Translations under genes and position numbers: made by a program
Part shown: positions 1,348 to 38,559 of the stretch, piece by piece
Layout of the letters: the number at the start of each line of letters is the position of its first letter
Position numbering within the stretch: position 1 is the stretch's first letter
NCBI GenBank assembly: GCA_021801345.1
Contig: JAJYYA010000063.1
Coordinates: 1 to 58,989, forward strand
Reading direction: 5' to 3'
Length of the DNA: 58,989 nt
From: Nitrospirota bacterium
GTDB lineage: Bacteria > Nitrospirota > Leptospirillia > Leptospirillales > Leptospirillaceae
The notes under the pieces: generated by a model
Seen by the model: the letters and a program-made list of their open reading frames with translations, nothing else
Database searches by the model: none
Told to the model about the DNA's origin: nothing

Positions 1348-2214
1348 TCAGACCAGTGTCGGCGTCGACATCCAGAACCCGGCCATGAGAAGGGCCCCCA
1401 GGGTCACATGGGAGCGAAAGAGCGCCATCGGTTCGCCATCACCCAACCCCCTCCTCATCTTCATTGCCTGAAGGGCCACCGTTCCGAAAAAGAGGAGAAT
1501 CGTCCAGAGAAGCCACCCTGAACGAGGCAGGGTCCGTCCGGCCTCCCAGAGAAAGAGTCCGGACAGAACGGAAAAGAACAGAAAGACAGCCCAGAGATTG
1601 TCGCCAAAGGTCACCGCCCCGGACCGGACTCCCGCCTTGCGGTCGTCGGGGAGGTCCGCCACGGCGTAGATCAGGTCGTAGGCGGTCGCCCAAAAGAGCC
1701 CGGCTGCGGCCACAAGAAGGCCTTTGGTCTGGAGGCCTCCCGTCAGCTGAACCCAGGCCATCAGGGGGGCAGTCGCCCCGAAAGGGATCCCCATGAAAAG
1801 CTGGGGAAGGGGAAAGAAGCGCTTCATCAGAGGGTAGATAACCGCAGTACCGTACCCTGCGACCGCTACAAGAATCGCCCTTTCCGAGAAGAAGGGAAGA
1901 AGAGAGGCGGAGAGAGCCGTCATAAAAAGAAAGACCCCCACGGCCCATCGGACGGAAAGCCGGCCGTCGGCCAAAGGGCGGCCTCGGGTCCTTGCGACCT
2001 TCCGGTCGATCTCCCGGTCAAAAAGATCATTTACCACGCAGCCCGCGGACCGGGTCAGGAAGGCTCCAAGAAAAAAAAGCGCCATCCATCCCCAGGCGGT
2101 CTCTCCCGGCCGGGCGAGGAGGATTGCCCATCCTGACGGAAGAAAGAGGAGAAGCGTCCCCACCGGACGGTCGAAGCGGATCAAATCCAGGGTATCGCGG
2201 AACCTTCCTCTCAC
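1348..2214 (-). CDS. ubiA: 4-hydroxybenzoate polyprenyltransferase (UbiA)
   Basis: A 288-residue polytopic membrane prenyltransferase. UbiA enzymes join a polyprenyl chain to 4-hydroxybenzoate, the membrane step of ubiquinone-type quinone synthesis. The N-terminal IRFDRPVGTLLLFLPSGWA matches the RxDRPxGxxLLxxP entry of UbiA. The first Asp-rich Mg/diphosphate motif is NDLFDREID with DRKVARTRGRPLADG after it; the second is YAVADLPDDRKAG. Seven to nine hydrophobic helices are visible and length is normal (about 290). The ATG at 2214 overlaps the TGA of the ubiC-like gene by 4 bp, so translation is probably coupled. It is the last gene of the operon starting at 5048. Confidence 0.93.
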   Translation of the reverse strand: MRGRFRDTLDLIRFDRPVGTLLLFLPSGWAILLARPGETAWGWMALFFLGAFLTRSAGCVVNDLFDREIDRKVARTRGRPLADGRLSVRWAVGVFLFMTALSASLLPFFSERAILVAVAGYGTAVIYPLMKRFFPLPQLFMGIPFGATAPLMAWVQLTGGLQTKGLLVAAAGLFWATAYDLIYAVADLPDDRKAGVRSGAVTFGDNLWAVFLFFSVLSGLFLWEAGRTLPRSGWLLWTILLFFGTVALQAMKMRRGLGDGEPMALFRSHVTLGALLMAGFWMSTPTLV

Positions 2215-2717
2215 CGGGGGGATCCTCCTGCCAGAGCCAGCAGAGGCTGAAGAAAGAACTCCTCGATCAGAAGCGAAGCGCCCGAGGCGGCGGTCATCCG
2301 ATAGGAACGGGTCCAGAAAGCCCCTTCCTTCTCGGCCGCATCGGGGTCGAAGGGAGCCGGAGAGGCATAGATGGCGTAGTCCTCTTTCTGAAGGGGACCG
2401 AAGCGGGCCTCCATCGACTGACCGATGGCCAGGTCGCCTTTCATGAGGGAGACCATCCAGCGGTCATCGGGGGAAGGGGGCATGGCGAGGACCCGGGTCC
2501 TCGCAAAGACAAGCCTCCCCACCGAGGGAACCCGGAGGTAGACCTTCCTGAGACCCTGGACGCTCTCGGGAAGGGAGACCGGTTCGACCGACACCGCCTC
2601 TCCCGTCAGAAACGACAGCGAGCGCGTGAGCGTGCCATCCTGGCCGAGAAGCACCCGAAATGGACCCGGGAGAGCGCGGAAGCCTTCCGGGAGAGGGCCG
2701 GGAAGAATCCCGTCCAT
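2211..2717 (-). CDS. ubiC: Chorismate--pyruvate lyase (UbiC-like)
   Basis: A 168-residue protein. The ATG at 2717 overlaps the stop of the radical SAM gene (TGATG) and is the natural coupled start; a longer frame to 2900 only runs inside the upstream gene. UbiC removes pyruvate from chorismate to give 4-hydroxybenzoate, the substrate of the UbiA encoded next door. Visible family features are FRVLLGQDGTLTRSLSFLTG near the N-terminus, the conserved REVxL-like KVYLRVPS, LVFARTRVLAMP, LAIGQ before the middle and RSYRMTAASGASLLIEEFFL at the C-terminus (family R-x-S/Y-x-x-x-x-x-G-x-PLLLTE-x-FLP). Sequence is diverged, so the call leans on both motifs and context. Confidence 0.78.
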   Translation of the reverse strand: MDGILPGPLPEGFRALPGPFRVLLGQDGTLTRSLSFLTGEAVSVEPVSLPESVQGLRKVYLRVPSVGRLVFARTRVLAMPPSPDDRWMVSLMKGDLAIGQSMEARFGPLQKEDYAIYASPAPFDPDAAEKEGAFWTRSYRMTAASGASLLIEEFFLQPLLALAGGSPR

Positions 2718-4294
2718 CAGGAGGCTCCGACCACCAGGGAGTCCTTTGCAGAGAGTGACCGCTCGCCCAGGGACTTCTTGATCTCCCGCATCACCACCCG
2801 ACCCATGGCCATCGGTTCGATGTCCCAAGCCAAGAGGCAGGCTTTGGCGATCAGCTCGCCCAAGGGACCCGGATTGTAGAGGAGCTTCCGGATCGTCCAA
2901 GGGTTGAGGGAGATGGGATCATAGTCCGGAGCAAGCCACCCTTCCCGCATGAGGCGCTTCTCGAAGCTCGTGTGGGGCTGGACCGCCAGGAAGAAGACCA
3001 TGGGATAGACATTTTCCGGACCGAATATCCGGCAGATCTCCTCGTAGCTTTCGACCGCCTCTGCCAGGGTTTCCGGGGTCTCTCCCGGGGCGTTCAAAGA
3101 GTAGTTGAGAATGATCTTTCCCTGGTAGCCGGCATTTTTCAGGTTCCGGCACCCCTCCATGAGCCCCTCGAGCCGGAAGCCCATCCGAAGAGAGTCGAGG
3201 ATCTCCTGGGACCCCGATGTGATGGCGACCTCGAGGTCGCCCATGCCCGATTCCACCATGAGTGAGGCCATCTCAGGCGAGATGAGACTTGTCCGGATAT
3301 ATCCGGACCAAGTCACCCCAAGGTCAGCCTCCTTCATCGCCCTAAGGAGCGCAAGACATTCGGGTACGGCCTTGACCCCGGGGATGAACTGGGCATCGGC
3401 AAACCAGAAGTTCCGGATACCCCAGCGGTCCCGATACTGGCGGATCTCTCCGATCACATCCTCGGGGTCGCGGTAGTAGACCCGCTTCCCCTCGATGTAG
3501 GTATAAAGACAGAAGGAGCAGCCATACGGACATCCACGCTTCGTCTGGATCCCCACGGTCTTGCCGTGATAGAGGGAGTGACCCGGAAAGACGGACTCGA
3601 GGTGGGCCAGGTCAAAGGGAGCCCGTCGGATCTCGACCGCCCCGGCCTTCTTGCCGAGGACGATCTCCCCTCCGCGGAGCATGATCGTGCGCTCGTCGTC
3701 GAGGGGCAGACCCCGGATAAGCTTGACCATCGCCTCCTCCCCTTCGCCCACGACTCCGATCACCCCTTCGGGAAGAAGTCGGATGATCTGTTCGGCAAAG
3801 ACGGAGAAGGCACCTCCCCCCACCATCACACAGGCGCCCGGCGCCCGGCGCATCCCTTCCCGGATGAAGCGAAGCTTCTTATGGAACTCCGAGCGGTACT
3901 TCCAGACCATGCGCAGGCCGTCCCACGCCGCGTAAGCGCGGGTCAGGAGGTTCGGAGAATAGTAAAATTCGAAGGCCCGACGAAGGGAGTTGTCTCCTTC
4001 GTGGGGAGCGAAGATCTGGACGTCGCGCCACGAATAGGCCAAAAGATCCGGGGAGAAGCGGGAGATTGTCTTCGCGAGTTCAGAAAGCTGCTCCGCCTCG
4101 GCAAATCGCGTGAGGTCAAGAACCTCGAGAGCGACCTCGGGATGCTCCCGGTGGATCCAGTTGACAAGGTAGCCGATCCCGACGGGAAAAATCTGTCGGA
4201 CGGGAAGCCACACAAAAAGGATCCTCTTGTACCTGAGGGGACGGGAAGAGTCCGACCCGTTCTCTTCGACGACCGAAAGGGGAATTGACTCCAT
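2717..4294 (-). CDS. B12-binding-domain radical SAM protein in quinone operon
   Basis: A 525-residue protein. Residues about 25-200 form a cobalamin-binding Rossmann-like domain (VGIGYLVNWIHRE, LLAYSWRDVQIF, ACVMVGGGAFSVFAEQ, VGEGEEAM). The radical SAM core follows: RGCPYGCSFCLYTY carries CxxxCxxC for the 4Fe-4S cluster, then WFADAQFIP, GDLEVAITSGSQEILDSLRMG and IILNYSLNAPGETPETL. The region is typical of B12-dependent methylases and the BchE-like ring-modifying enzymes, but no substrate can be read from sequence. It sits between the UbiE-like methyltransferase (2 bp upstream) and the UbiC-like lyase (1-bp overlap), so a role in quinone head-group modification is the natural inference. Confidence 0.85.
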   Translation of the reverse strand: MESIPLSVVEENGSDSSRPLRYKRILFVWLPVRQIFPVGIGYLVNWIHREHPEVALEVLDLTRFAEAEQLSELAKTISRFSPDLLAYSWRDVQIFAPHEGDNSLRRAFEFYYSPNLLTRAYAAWDGLRMVWKYRSEFHKKLRFIREGMRRAPGACVMVGGGAFSVFAEQIIRLLPEGVIGVVGEGEEAMVKLIRGLPLDDERTIMLRGGEIVLGKKAGAVEIRRAPFDLAHLESVFPGHSLYHGKTVGIQTKRGCPYGCSFCLYTYIEGKRVYYRDPEDVIGEIRQYRDRWGIRNFWFADAQFIPGVKAVPECLALLRAMKEADLGVTWSGYIRTSLISPEMASLMVESGMGDLEVAITSGSQEILDSLRMGFRLEGLMEGCRNLKNAGYQGKIILNYSLNAPGETPETLAEAVESYEEICRIFGPENVYPMVFFLAVQPHTSFEKRLMREGWLAPDYDPISLNPWTIRKLLYNPGPLGELIAKACLLAWDIEPMAMGRVVMREIKKSLGERSLSAKDSLVVGAS

Positions 4295-4295
4295 A

Positions 4296-5048
4296 TTATT
4301 TCTCTCCCGTATGGATCGCGACGATCCCTCCCGAGAGGTTGCGATAGCCTACGCGGGAAAATCCGGCCTTTTCGATCGTCTTCCGGAAGCTCTCCTGGTC
4401 GGGGAACTTCGCGATCGAGGCGGGGAGGTATTCGTAGATTCCGGTATTGTCCTTCGATATCCATCGACCGATCTTGGGCAGGATGAAAAAGGAGTAGAAA
4501 CGGTAGAGCCCGTCCCAAAGGGCGTTGACGGGATGAGAAAACTCGAGGCAGGCAAAACGCCCCCCCGGCTTCAAAATGCGGTGGATCTCCGCAAGTGCGG
4601 TATCGAGGTTCGTCACATTCCGGAGTCCGAACCCCACAGTCAGCCGATCGACCGAGCCATCGGGAAGGGGAATCCGTTCCGCGTTGGCCTGGATCATGAC
4701 GGGACGGGCGCGGCTTTCGCGCTCCTTGAGCCCGTCGATCAGGCGGCTCCGAGCCTTGGCAAGCCCCACGCGAAGCATCGCAAGGTTAAGGTCGACCGTC
4801 ATGACAAGCCCCGTTCCGGCAGCCTTTTCCGCGGCCAGAAGGGAAAGATCGGCCGTCCCTCCACAGAGATCAACGACCACATGGCCAGGCACGATATCGA
4901 GAAGATTGATGGTCAGCCGCTTCCAGCGATGGTGCTGGCCCAGGGAAAGGACGGAGTTGTTCAGGTCGTAGGCTGCCGCCGCCGACGTGAACATGCTCTG
5001 GACGACCTCCTGCTTCTGTTCCTTCGCCGGGAGGGTGTACTCAGACAT
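4296..5048 (-). CDS. ubiE: UbiE/MenG-family quinone C-methyltransferase
   Basis: A 250-residue SAM-dependent methyltransferase that C-methylates a prenylated quinol ring (demethylmenaquinol or a ubiquinol precursor). Visible features are the N-terminal VQSMFTSAAAAYDLNNSVLS (family FxxVAxxYDxMN), HHRWKR, the SAM-binding VVDLCGGTADLSLLA, the acidic TVDLN, ANAERIPLPDGSVDRLTVGFGLRN (family AxALPFxDxxFDxVTxxFGLRN), LKPGGRFACLEFS and the C-terminal GGIVAIHTG. Length is normal. It is the first gene of the quinone operon, with a promoter at 5129-5156. UbiE and MenG cannot be separated by sequence alone; the ubiC/ubiA neighbours favour the 4-hydroxybenzoate branch. Confidence 0.92.
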   Translation of the reverse strand: MSEYTLPAKEQKQEVVQSMFTSAAAAYDLNNSVLSLGQHHRWKRLTINLLDIVPGHVVVDLCGGTADLSLLAAEKAAGTGLVMTVDLNLAMLRVGLAKARSRLIDGLKERESRARPVMIQANAERIPLPDGSVDRLTVGFGLRNVTNLDTALAEIHRILKPGGRFACLEFSHPVNALWDGLYRFYSFFILPKIGRWISKDNTGIYEYLPASIAKFPDQESFRKTIEKAGFSRVGYRNLSGGIVAIHTGEK

Positions 5049-5691: not shown

Positions 5692-6123
5692 TCAAGCGAC
5701 AGAGAGATCCAGAGTACGTCCGAGAGCCTTAAAAATTTTCTCGAGAGACACCACGGTCGGATTGGTTCCCGATCGTTCCCACTTTTGCACCTGTTGGAAC
5801 GTTACCCCCACCCTTCGCGCCAGATCGGCTTGGGTCATTCCCGCCCCGATTCGCGCTTTCCGGATCAGGATCGGGCATGAAACATGCAGGTCCGGCTCTA
5901 CCCAGTAGATCCCTTCCTGTGCTTCTTCCGGTCGCAAAGGATCCGGAATTTCCATTCCATGATCGAGCATCGCCCCCAATACTCCTGTCAGAGCTTCCCG
6001 TGCATTCTTCAGGGCTTCACCCAAAGTGTCCCCGTCCGTGATGACGCCGGTCAGAGGCTCGAGTCCCTGAACTGAATAATAATCCTCTTCTTTCAGAATC
6101 CGAACAGGATAGGTCACTTTCAT
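5692..6123 (-). CDS. hicB: HicB-type antitoxin with C-terminal HTH
   Basis: A 143-residue antitoxin. Residues about 1-70 are the HicB partial RNase-H-like domain (YPVRILKEEDYYSVQGLEPL, GVITDGDTLGEALKNAREAL, the pattern of HicB proteins). Residues about 85-143 form a Cro/CI-type helix-turn-helix (RIGAGMTQADLARRVGVTFQQVQKWERSG), expected to bind the promoter of the operon. The ATG at 6123 overlaps the stop of hicA by 3 bases (ATGA), the usual hicAB arrangement. The antitoxin looks intact while its toxin partner is frameshifted, so it may persist as a repressor only. Confidence 0.9.
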   Translation of the reverse strand: MKVTYPVRILKEEDYYSVQGLEPLTGVITDGDTLGEALKNAREALTGVLGAMLDHGMEIPDPLRPEEAQEGIYWVEPDLHVSCPILIRKARIGAGMTQADLARRVGVTFQQVQKWERSGTNPTVVSLEKIFKALGRTLDLSVA

Positions 6124-6318
6124 GTTTTGTCTCCGTGAATATTGGCATCCTTTAAAATTTTGCGAGCCGTTCCAAACTTGATCTCCTTACCTTTGTGGAC
6201 CGGGACCGAAAGTGTTTTTGCTTGACCCAGTTTCACAAAGATATGATGAGATCCTTGGATTCTGTCCAGTACCCAACCGTTTTTCTCAAGAACTATTGAT
6301 CAAATCCCGGCTCTTCAT
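6120..6318 (-). pseudogene. hicA: HicA-family toxin, disrupted by a 1-bp frameshift
   Basis: ATG at 6318 begins MKSRDLIN, the typical HicA N-terminus, but the frame stops after two more codons (TGA at about 6287-6289). The +1 frame continues with VLEKNGWVLDRIQGSHHIF, then KTLSVPVHKGKEIKFGTARKILKDANI to a TGA at 6120-6122 that overlaps the hicB start. The pieces join exactly if one base near 6293-6297 is removed, giving a 65-residue protein with the HicA double-stranded-RNA-binding fold and the active-site His in GSHH. Length is 199 nt, one over a multiple of three. It is either a true inactivation or a sequencing error. Confidence 0.85.
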
Positions 6319-36675: not shown

Positions 36676-38559
36676 CTAGTGGGCGATCTGGACCAGCGCG
36701 TGCTTGGTGTCCTCAGTGGCCGCTGGCTGCGGCAATCTGAGCTTCGCGACTGTCTCCTTGTACGCCCTGTGAACCCTGTCTAGATCCTGGGTAAAAAAAG
36801 CCCCCAACTGTGCCAGCGAGGAATAAAGCGAGCCGTCCTGCTTGTCTAGGACAAGGGAGACGGCGGTAGGGGCAGAGTTTTTGTGCACTGCCAACCATTT
36901 CCGCACGGCCTCGATCTTCTGAAAGAACTCTTCTTCCCCCTGTCGCGCTCGCTCCATCGCCGGCAAAACAATACAGTCCACCTTCCCGAGGATCTTGGAG
37001 AGAGCCGTCATATCGTCCGACCCCTCGGCCACCGTCTCGGAGAAAGGGACCACCGAACTGCCAAGCCTTGCAAAAAAGTCCACAAGGCTCGAACCTAGCT
37101 CCGAGTCGAATACGAATCTCGGAACACCCACACGGTTGGTGCGTGGTTTCTTGGCGAGGGAGGCACCGCTCTCCTCGGCCTTTTCAAAGACCGTCGACCG
37201 GAGTTCATCAAGGAAACCCTGATTTTCCCGGCGCCAGTTCTTCAAAAGATTTTTCGCTCCGAACTGGATCAACGTCGAGTAGTAATCCCTGCGCATCGCA
37301 CTTCTTCCAATGTTTCCCCAGGAGTAAAAGTCCTCCATGGCGGCGATCGCTGCGTCGTTCAGTTCGAAGGCGGTCATGTTCTTTGGACGGTAGACGGCAT
37401 GGTGACCGTCGTAGAGACTCCAGTCCTTGTAGAGAAGCTCTCGGTTGCCCGTTGCGTAAAAGAGGTCAAAGTCCGGCGACCCCGGGAGCGGGGTGAGAAT
37501 CATGAGCTGGATCGACTGGAGCTCCCATTCCTTGGCGAGCCGGGCCGTCTCGTAGATCGTCTCCTTGTCGTCGGTATCGGCACCGACGACAAACATCCCG
37601 TGAATCCTGATCCCATGCTTCTTGAAGGCCTCCACCGACCGAACGATCTTCTCGTAGGTCTGGCGCTTGTTGAAGAGGTCGAGTGTCTGGGGATTGATCG
37701 ACTCGAAACCGATAAAAACGTTGAAGCAGTTACTTTCCTTCATGAGGTCAAGAAGCTCTGGATCGAAGGCGGTCTCGGTCCGGATCTGGGCTCCCCACTC
37801 GGGGGTCAGACCCTCCTCGATCATGCGCTTGAGAAGATCCTTGGTCCGCTTCCTGTTGGCCGTAAAAAGATCGTCGGCAAAGAAGACGTACTTGGGGTTA
37901 TTGACCCGGATCTCATCGATGACCCGCTCGATGGAGTGCATGCGAAACCCATGGCCGTACATCCCCGGAACCGAACAGAATGTGCAGGTAAACGGACATC
38001 CCCGGGAGGTTGCGATTGAAATAAGCCCTCTTTTCTGGGTATTCCATCCCTCGACAAGGCTGTAGTCGGGAATCGGGTTCGAGTCGAGATCCTCCTTCAG
38101 GGGGCGGTCGGGATTGTGCATCTTGCGACCGTTTTTCCAGTAGGAGAGGCCCAGGATTTTCTCGAAGGGACGGCTTCCTTCCATTGCCTCGATCAGCTCA
38201 AACAGAGTCTCTTCGCCTTCTCCGCGAACAACATAGTCGGAGAACTCCAGCGCTTCGTCCGCCATAAAGGAGACATGGGTTCCCCCTATGACGACCGGAA
38301 TACCGGCATCGCGAACCGTCTGAGCAAGCCTGTAGGACTGCGGAGCGGTCGATGTCAGCGTGGAAATTCCCACGATATCGGCAGACAGAACTTCCTTCAT
38401 GTCGACAGGAGCCACGTCTTCTATATAGACCTTCACTTCCCAACCACGGTCGCGAAGCATCGTTCCAAGAAGGATGACCCCAAGCCTTGGAATCGTGAAC
38501 GCACTATACACATGCAGGTGAGTCGATTTCGGCTCCACAAGCACGAATTTTTTAGCCAT
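36676..38559 (-). CDS. B12-binding-domain radical SAM protein with C-terminal extension
   Basis: A 627-residue protein. Residues about 1-130 are a cobalamin-binding domain (IPRLGVILLGTMLRDRGWEV, ADIVGISTLTSTAPQSYRLA, VVIGGTHVSFMADEAL, VRGEGEETL). The radical SAM core (about 180-420) has ATSRGCPFTCTFCSVPGMYG with CxxxCxxC, FFADDLFTAN, GFESINPQTLDLF and GMFVVGADTDD. Its overall look is that of HpnJ/BchE-like B12 radical enzymes. Residues about 470-620 are an extra, alternating alpha/beta domain of unknown role. A 2[4Fe-4S] ferredoxin gene lies 61 bp upstream and is an obvious candidate electron donor. Substrate unknown; hopanoid or other lipid modification is a guess. Confidence 0.85.
   Translation of the reverse strand: MAKKFVLVEPKSTHLHVYSAFTIPRLGVILLGTMLRDRGWEVKVYIEDVAPVDMKEVLSADIVGISTLTSTAPQSYRLAQTVRDAGIPVVIGGTHVSFMADEALEFSDYVVRGEGEETLFELIEAMEGSRPFEKILGLSYWKNGRKMHNPDRPLKEDLDSNPIPDYSLVEGWNTQKRGLISIATSRGCPFTCTFCSVPGMYGHGFRMHSIERVIDEIRVNNPKYVFFADDLFTANRKRTKDLLKRMIEEGLTPEWGAQIRTETAFDPELLDLMKESNCFNVFIGFESINPQTLDLFNKRQTYEKIVRSVEAFKKHGIRIHGMFVVGADTDDKETIYETARLAKEWELQSIQLMILTPLPGSPDFDLFYATGNRELLYKDWSLYDGHHAVYRPKNMTAFELNDAAIAAMEDFYSWGNIGRSAMRRDYYSTLIQFGAKNLLKNWRRENQGFLDELRSTVFEKAEESGASLAKKPRTNRVGVPRFVFDSELGSSLVDFFARLGSSVVPFSETVAEGSDDMTALSKILGKVDCIVLPAMERARQGEEEFFQKIEAVRKWLAVHKNSAPTAVSLVLDKQDGSLYSSLAQLGAFFTQDLDRVHRAYKETVAKLRLPQPAATEDTKHALVQIAH

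Follow-up and report, generated by a model that had tools for sequence, protein, structure and literature searches.

A B12-binding radical SAM protein encoded with quinone genes in Nitrospirota: a candidate ring methylase of methyl-plastoquinone synthesis

What does a B12-binding radical SAM protein do in the middle of a quinone operon? The question is raised by a contig of a Nitrospirota bacterium (JAJYYA010000063.1; the 58,989 nucleotides analysed are hereafter called the window), in which a protein of this type, here termed rSAM, is encoded among genes of quinone synthesis. A sequence-only reading had proposed that four tightly coupled genes form a methyl-plastoquinone (mPQ) operon, with the radical enzyme as an undescribed step. 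The four genes are as follows.

4296..5048, minus strand: mpqE, UbiE/COQ5-type quinol C-methyltransferase (NCBIfam NF052510, PF01209)
2717..4294, minus strand: B12-binding radical SAM protein (rSAM), Slr0320-like (NF045585, PF04055, B12-binding)
2211..2717, minus strand: UbiC-like chorismate lyase, 168 aa (PF01947; TGATG junction; AF1396/DUF98)
1348..2214, minus strand: UbiA, 4-hydroxybenzoate polyprenyltransferase (PF01040, TIGR01474)

Transcription on the minus strand runs from mpqE through rSAM and ubiC to ubiA. The junction sequences bear out the coupling of 1–4 bp: mpqE and rSAM are separated by a 1-bp gap (TAA-T-ATG), rSAM and ubiC overlap by 1 nt (TGATG) and ubiC and ubiA overlap by 4 nt (GTGA). 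The range of 2211–5048 originally given for the four genes is too short, as ubiA lies outside it and reaches 1348. A 229-aa UbiC frame with a TTG start was rejected as over-extended in favour of the ATG at 2717, which is coupled to the rSAM stop and gives 168 aa. A chance arrangement of open reading frames was also rejected, because the four-gene order repeats in genomes of the window's own family and of family f8, and the mpqE–rSAM pair repeats in many families. The top NCBIfam match of the UbiE-like product is MpqE (NF052510), which favours the proposed mPQ operon; its 318 bits lie below the cut-off of 335, which relatives in the window's own family straddle (324–343), and it scores 228 bits against PF01209. 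The Nitrospirota host that had been supposed agrees with the closest named rSAM loci among the best 80 listed, those of Nitrospirae bacterium UBA4572 and Leptospirillum sp. The UbiC-like protein is weak by sequence, exceeding the PF01947 gathering score narrowly (23.7 vs 22 bits) and reaching 27 bits against NF037993 (cut-off 175); among solved structures, AF1396 (Pfam DUF98) is its top match both in the profile search and in the comparison of predicted folds. UbiA belongs to the Pfam UbiA family (PF01040, 155 bits) and scores 221 bits against TIGR01474, under the cut-off of 275. Elsewhere on the minus strand, the window encodes a HicB-like antitoxin with a helix-turn-helix (5692–6123) and, ahead of it, a short HicA-like frame (about 6120–6290), the two (5692–6293) being probably a HicAB pair; it also encodes a second B12-type radical SAM protein of 627 aa (36676–38559), which weakly resembles HpnJ (155 bits) and BchE (154 bits), both scores being far under the cut-offs.

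The best NCBIfam match of the window rSAM is NF045585 (rSAM_slr0320), at 464 bits and over the full length (residues 23–515 on profile positions 2–504). The equivalog cut-off of 775 is missed by this protein and by every genome of the phylum, and judging by these scores we treat it as a sister group of NF045585, not as an equivalog. The CxxxCxxC cluster motif is present in 62 of 62 sequences, with C255, C259 and C262 invariant. The N-terminal B12-binding domain scores 25.7 bits against PF02310 (cut-off 32.1), and the predicted fold matches TsrM, OxsB and TokK across both domains. TsrM is the closest fold match of the AlphaFold model (pLDDT 85), further matches being MgmA (rank 5), AprD4, OxsB, CysS and TokK. 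No HemN-type family is found among the Pfam and NCBIfam matches of the window rSAM, and a B12-binding-like domain precedes its radical SAM domain; it thus appears to fall outside class C as represented by MenK and MqnK, that is, HemN/HemW-type proteins without a cobalamin domain. Nor is there an Mpq radical SAM family among its matches in NCBIfam (June 2026). BchE belongs to the same superfamily, which raises another possible activity, that of an oxygen-independent ring oxygenase taking the second ring oxygen from water; the match of rSAM to BchE is 41 bits, however, far under the Slr0320 score.

When cyanobacteria make plastoquinone (PQ) from 4-hydroxybenzoate, the enzyme responsible for ring methylation is, to our knowledge, not settled. 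Slr0320 is conserved among cyanobacteria, and its mutant shows slow reoxidation of QA- and normal oxygen evolution with the artificial quinone DCBQ (PMC8065906). In photosystem II it is the plastoquinone step that is slowed in this mutant, and a missing quinone methylation was tentatively proposed in 2021 (PMC8065906). The radical step is thus less novel than the sequence-only reading supposed, its family being already named after Slr0320 and quinone methylation already suggested, and what stands is the link to the quinone pathway. That reading had named an unrelated substrate in the best-characterised orthologue as grounds for abandoning the idea; the best-studied relative, Slr0320, instead has a plastoquinone-linked phenotype (PMC8065906). 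The same mutant can also be read as having an altered QB site (PMC8065906), and B12-dependent radical SAM enzymes also modify proteins, as does MgmA at rank 5 of the fold matches, and hopanoids. rSAM could then act on a protein or another lipid working with the quinone (a quinone-binding site, a hopanoid or a pigment) in place of the quinone itself, although Nitrospirota have no photosystem II.

In the phylum, the conserved partner of rSAM is mpqE. The two genes lie on the same strand with mpqE before rSAM, adjacent or one small ORF apart, in 47 of the 48 loci that have both on one piece, and in the 48th, that of G188, rSAM is frameshifted (L080:5605–7269, a single-contig Nitrospira in which the adjoining mpqE is intact and rSAM is split by frameshifts). 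ubiC and ubiA share an operon with this pair only in the window's own family and in f8, and a general ubiC/ubiA linkage in the phylum was rejected on this account; the UbiA score itself tracks rSAM in the phylum. The best 80 rSAM loci listed are all from Nitrospirota except one from an Actinomycetota metagenome-assembled genome, and there is no named cyanobacterial copy among them. The Actinomycetota contig (L214:158–2360) carries the mpqE–rSAM pair with a 1-bp gap (mpqE 46–51% and rSAM 40% identical); as the only copy seen outside Nitrospirota among these 80 loci, it would reflect transfer or misbinning. In the plasmid collection, rSAM found generic relatives only. Neighbours of the pair in Nitrospira include a universal-stress protein with PCP_red domains (L098:2515–4632) and a heme-type SPASM radical SAM protein, also with a PCP_red domain (L099:326–1699).

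We ran the Slr0320 model (NF045585) on 296 genomes of the phylum. Full-length matches of 426–509 bits were found in 13 families, and the remaining families gave only generic B12-type radical SAM matches of at most 95 bits; at E<=1e-60, the model was positive in one of 14 control genomes, that of Synechococcus elongatus, a PQ maker. MpqE scored at least 304 bits in 40 of 40 rSAM-positive genomes tested, whereas rSAM-negative families held only MenG/UbiE-like proteins of at most 240 bits, save for G184 and G240. The UbiA score was bimodal (220–325 bits in rSAM-positive vs 102–142 bits in rSAM-negative genomes), nearly all rSAM-positive genomes having a 4-hydroxybenzoate-type UbiA; the profile search gave no UbiA match in G124 and G264. 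A UbiH-like FAD hydroxylase (G000:C69:166286–167557 and homologues in rSAM-positive families) accompanies the mPQ genes in the phylum and is a candidate mPQ ring hydroxylase. It was found in most rSAM-positive genomes, with no match in families f8 and f9, and in none of 27 genomes lacking both rSAM and mpqE. This co-occurrence with mPQ genes, together with the adjacency to mpqE, upholds the proposed tie of rSAM to the quinone pathway. The coupling of rSAM to mpqE, ubiC and ubiA and its company with mPQ genes in the families also speak against a protein or another lipid as its target. A water-derived ring oxygen is in turn hard to reconcile with the UbiH-like hydroxylase that rSAM-positive genomes of all families but f8 and f9 already have, and with the O2-dependent PQ hydroxylase of cyanobacteria (PMC13386864). 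The mPQ papers further record mPQ in Nitrospira inopinata and N. moscoviensis (PMC12324825, PMC13386864), and menaquinone in early-branching and mPQ in later aerobic Nitrospirota (PMC13386864), a split with which the distribution of rSAM agrees. rSAM is missing in families f32, f38 and f40 (G184, G240, G304 and G305; small genomes), of which G184 and G240 keep mpqE, UbiA and the hydroxylase and have neither rSAM nor the methyltransferase c37 described below. mPQ-like synthesis may thus manage without both enzymes, and genomes of these families may make a less methylated quinone.

UbiE/MenG enzymes act at the ring position adjoining the prenyl chain. PMC12324825 describes mPQ as PQ with one more methyl, adjoining the prenyl chain. 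The extra methyl of mPQ is then at the UbiE position, and by subtraction an enzyme common to PQ and mPQ makers would fit the other two methyls.

Six genomes of the Nitrospira-type family f10, all near-complete, have mpqE with rSAM missing or broken (G050, G148, G188, G248, G262 and G290; G148 is Nitrospira japonica NJ1; PMC5767232). Five of the six carry c37, a SAM methyltransferase of 325–347 aa with a hydrophobic N-terminal stretch, which occurs in 24 of the 296 genomes, all in f10 (five rSAM losers and 19 rSAM keepers; p=0.01); G262 has lost rSAM and has no c37. NCBIfam and Pfam gave c37 no specific name, and we take it to be very similar to the MPBQ/MSBQ methyltransferase Sll0418 of Synechocystis. 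It is 78–81% identical to proteins of cyanobacterial plasmids, which makes horizontal transfer likely. In G050 and G248, c37 and a UbiH-superfamily hydroxylase fill exactly the interval from mpqE to the usual downstream neighbour of rSAM, with no metE there, and in G290 c37 again adjoins mpqE. The hydroxylase is a second copy of one found in nearly all f10 genomes. G050, G148, G188, G207, G248 and G290 carry this cassette copy (at least 90% identical); the native one is missing from G050 and G248, and G148 has it in truncated form.

The cassette copy was found in five of the six rSAM losers vs 1 of 71 others (p=1.8e-6). Among genomes at least 95% complete, with a further f10 set included, the counts were 5/6 losers vs 1/83 (p=8.6e-7), and with no completeness limit they were 5/25 rSAM-less genomes vs 1/132 (p=3.8e-4). 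On the mpqE tree, rSAM loss and the cassette each change six times, at single tips, so that shared ancestry inflates the count little and the Fisher test approximates a count of events; a tree-based pairs test agrees in direction (4:0 for the cassette), with too few events for significance. The further set, intended as replication, comprised 97 f10 genomes, 19 of them without rSAM and 70–91% complete; the cassette hydroxylase was found in none of the 80 searched, which included all 19. Some of these 19, listed beside G262, may represent real loss in a clade.

Taken together, the family, neighbourhood and loss pattern suggest that rSAM is probably a B12-dependent C-methyltransferase for the ring methyls common to PQ and mPQ, with c37 as its B12-independent stand-in. 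The replacement cassette of Nitrospira and Picosynechococcus includes a UbiH-like FAD hydroxylase, as might be expected if rSAM were an oxygenase of the BchE kind, but its constant part is the methyltransferase, and we consider that activity highly improbable. The earlier idea that rSAM could modify the ring or side chain without oxygen, taken here as a substitute for hydroxylation, likewise yields to ring C-methylation, its B12-independent replacement being a methyltransferase. That the apparent replacement is a small-molecule methyltransferase with quinone-type neighbours makes a protein or another lipid an improbable target as well.

The surroundings of c37 bear on the B12 part of this proposal. 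It lies near the B12-independent metE in G148, G217 and G290 and near class I nrdAB in G188, G207, G217 and G290. Of 78 f10 genomes, just six have metE, and four of these are rSAM losers; G290 has also lost the B12-dependent metH. Close relatives of c37 are carried by six plasmids of the collection, all cyanobacterial (L216, NZ_CP014003.1; L219, AP017960.1; L217; L218; L240; L241), and each of the six has a cobalamin riboswitch upstream, oriented the same way. This riboswitch precedes metE in two Picosynechococcus-type plasmids and a short ORF plus the methyltransferase in the other four; a transposase is inserted in the Halotia plasmid, and in that of N. edaphicum the arrangement crosses the origin of the record. 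Two of the plasmids carry metE and a UbiH-like hydroxylase, and in others the relative lies near cobW or a ribonucleotide reductase. Read from its sequence, the plasmid cluster is a portable B12-sparing island. The riboswitches near c37 in Nitrospira face neighbours such as metE and nrdAB, not c37. Most simply, c37 would spare B12 by standing in for a B12 enzyme, which beside mpqE would be rSAM. Because c37 travels with metE and nrdAB, its link to rSAM loss could also be a by-product of multi-gene B12-independence islands, with c37 in another pathway and the role of rSAM left aside; this would suit the 19 genomes that hold rSAM and c37 together and the lack of a further cassette in the follow-up f10 genomes. 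However, the hydroxylase that accompanies c37 is paralogous to the quinone-type hydroxylase of the host; G050 and G248 lack the host copy, and in G148 it is truncated. In G050 and G248, c37 and its hydroxylase stand exactly in the place of rSAM beside mpqE, without metE. We therefore regard a by-product as unlikely, though not negligible, and retain c37 as the stand-in for rSAM.

From the gene order, co-occurrence, family, predicted fold, rSAM loss with the c37 cassette and riboswitch linkage of c37 relatives in cyanobacteria, all seen directly, we infer a reaction, a ring position, a step order and an equivalence with Slr0320. UbiC would supply 4-hydroxybenzoate, which UbiA would prenylate; MpqE would methylate the ring carbon adjoining the prenyl chain, and rSAM one or both of the remaining ring carbons, giving the methyls common to mPQ and cyanobacterial PQ. 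As a class B methylase, rSAM would use methylcobalamin as methyl donor, and a 5'-deoxyadenosyl radical or the reduced cluster would, as in TsrM, drive transfer onto an sp2 carbon of the ring; with the prenyl chain at C2, the acceptor would be C5, C6 or both. This methylation would probably take place on the phenol, ahead of the second oxygen, and Slr0320 would act likewise in cyanobacterial PQ synthesis. c37 would replace rSAM without B12, as MetE replaces MetH, and in this bypass the hydroxylase would act before methylation. The separate hydroxylase of the bypass could be explained by the requirement of conventional SAM methyltransferases for an activated quinol ring, the order of steps being speculation. 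More broadly, we see about an even chance that ring methylation of the high-potential quinones PQ and mPQ is normally a B12-dependent radical reaction, which a B12-independent bypass of hydroxylase and SAM methyltransferase, linked to B12 riboswitches, can displace with the order of hydroxylation and methylation reversed.

New here are the loss of rSAM in six near-complete Nitrospira genomes and the presence in five of them of a cyanobacterial-type methyltransferase and a second quinone-type hydroxylase. The question can be tested in existing strains, since one gene family follows both quinones, a mutant phenotype is known in a cyanobacterium and a B12-independent replacement occurs naturally. 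If the proposal is true, the supply of B12 matters directly for the electron carrier used in oxygenic photosynthesis and in nitrite oxidation.

Among known systems, MenK and MqnK likewise use radical SAM chemistry to methylate the ring of a respiratory quinone, menaquinone; they are of class C and cobalamin-free, and their substrate is a naphthoquinone rather than a benzoquinone. TsrM, the tryptophan C2 methylase, methylates an aromatic carbon and resembles rSAM in the predicted fold, the CxxxCxxC motif and a cobalamin domain that is putative in rSAM. The class B methylases TsrM, TokK, CysS and MgmA are only 15–20% identical to the window rSAM, and they act on amino acids, thioesters or proteins, unlike the proposed quinone. 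The mPQ pathway of nitrifiers has reportedly been put forward as tentative. In the form described for Nitrospirota (MpqA–MpqE; Elling et al. 2025, via excerpts of PMC12324825 and PMC13386864), it has in common with the window the phylum and mpqE-, UbiA- and UbiC-type genes, and the excerpted accounts name no radical SAM member. Sll0418 is a SAM methyltransferase in PQ and tocopherol synthesis (PMC5159609), from which the presumably similar c37-type copies differ in being riboswitch-linked or horizontally acquired. Slr0320 of Synechocystis (NF045585, 'photosystem II high light acclimation radical SAM protein') differs from the window rSAM in that the latter has a non-photosynthetic host, lies inside an operon with quinone genes and reaches 464 bits where the cut-off is 775; it is nonetheless a full-length homologue with a radical SAM domain and a B12-binding domain, the latter putative in the window protein, and both proteins are found in makers of quinones of the PQ/mPQ type.
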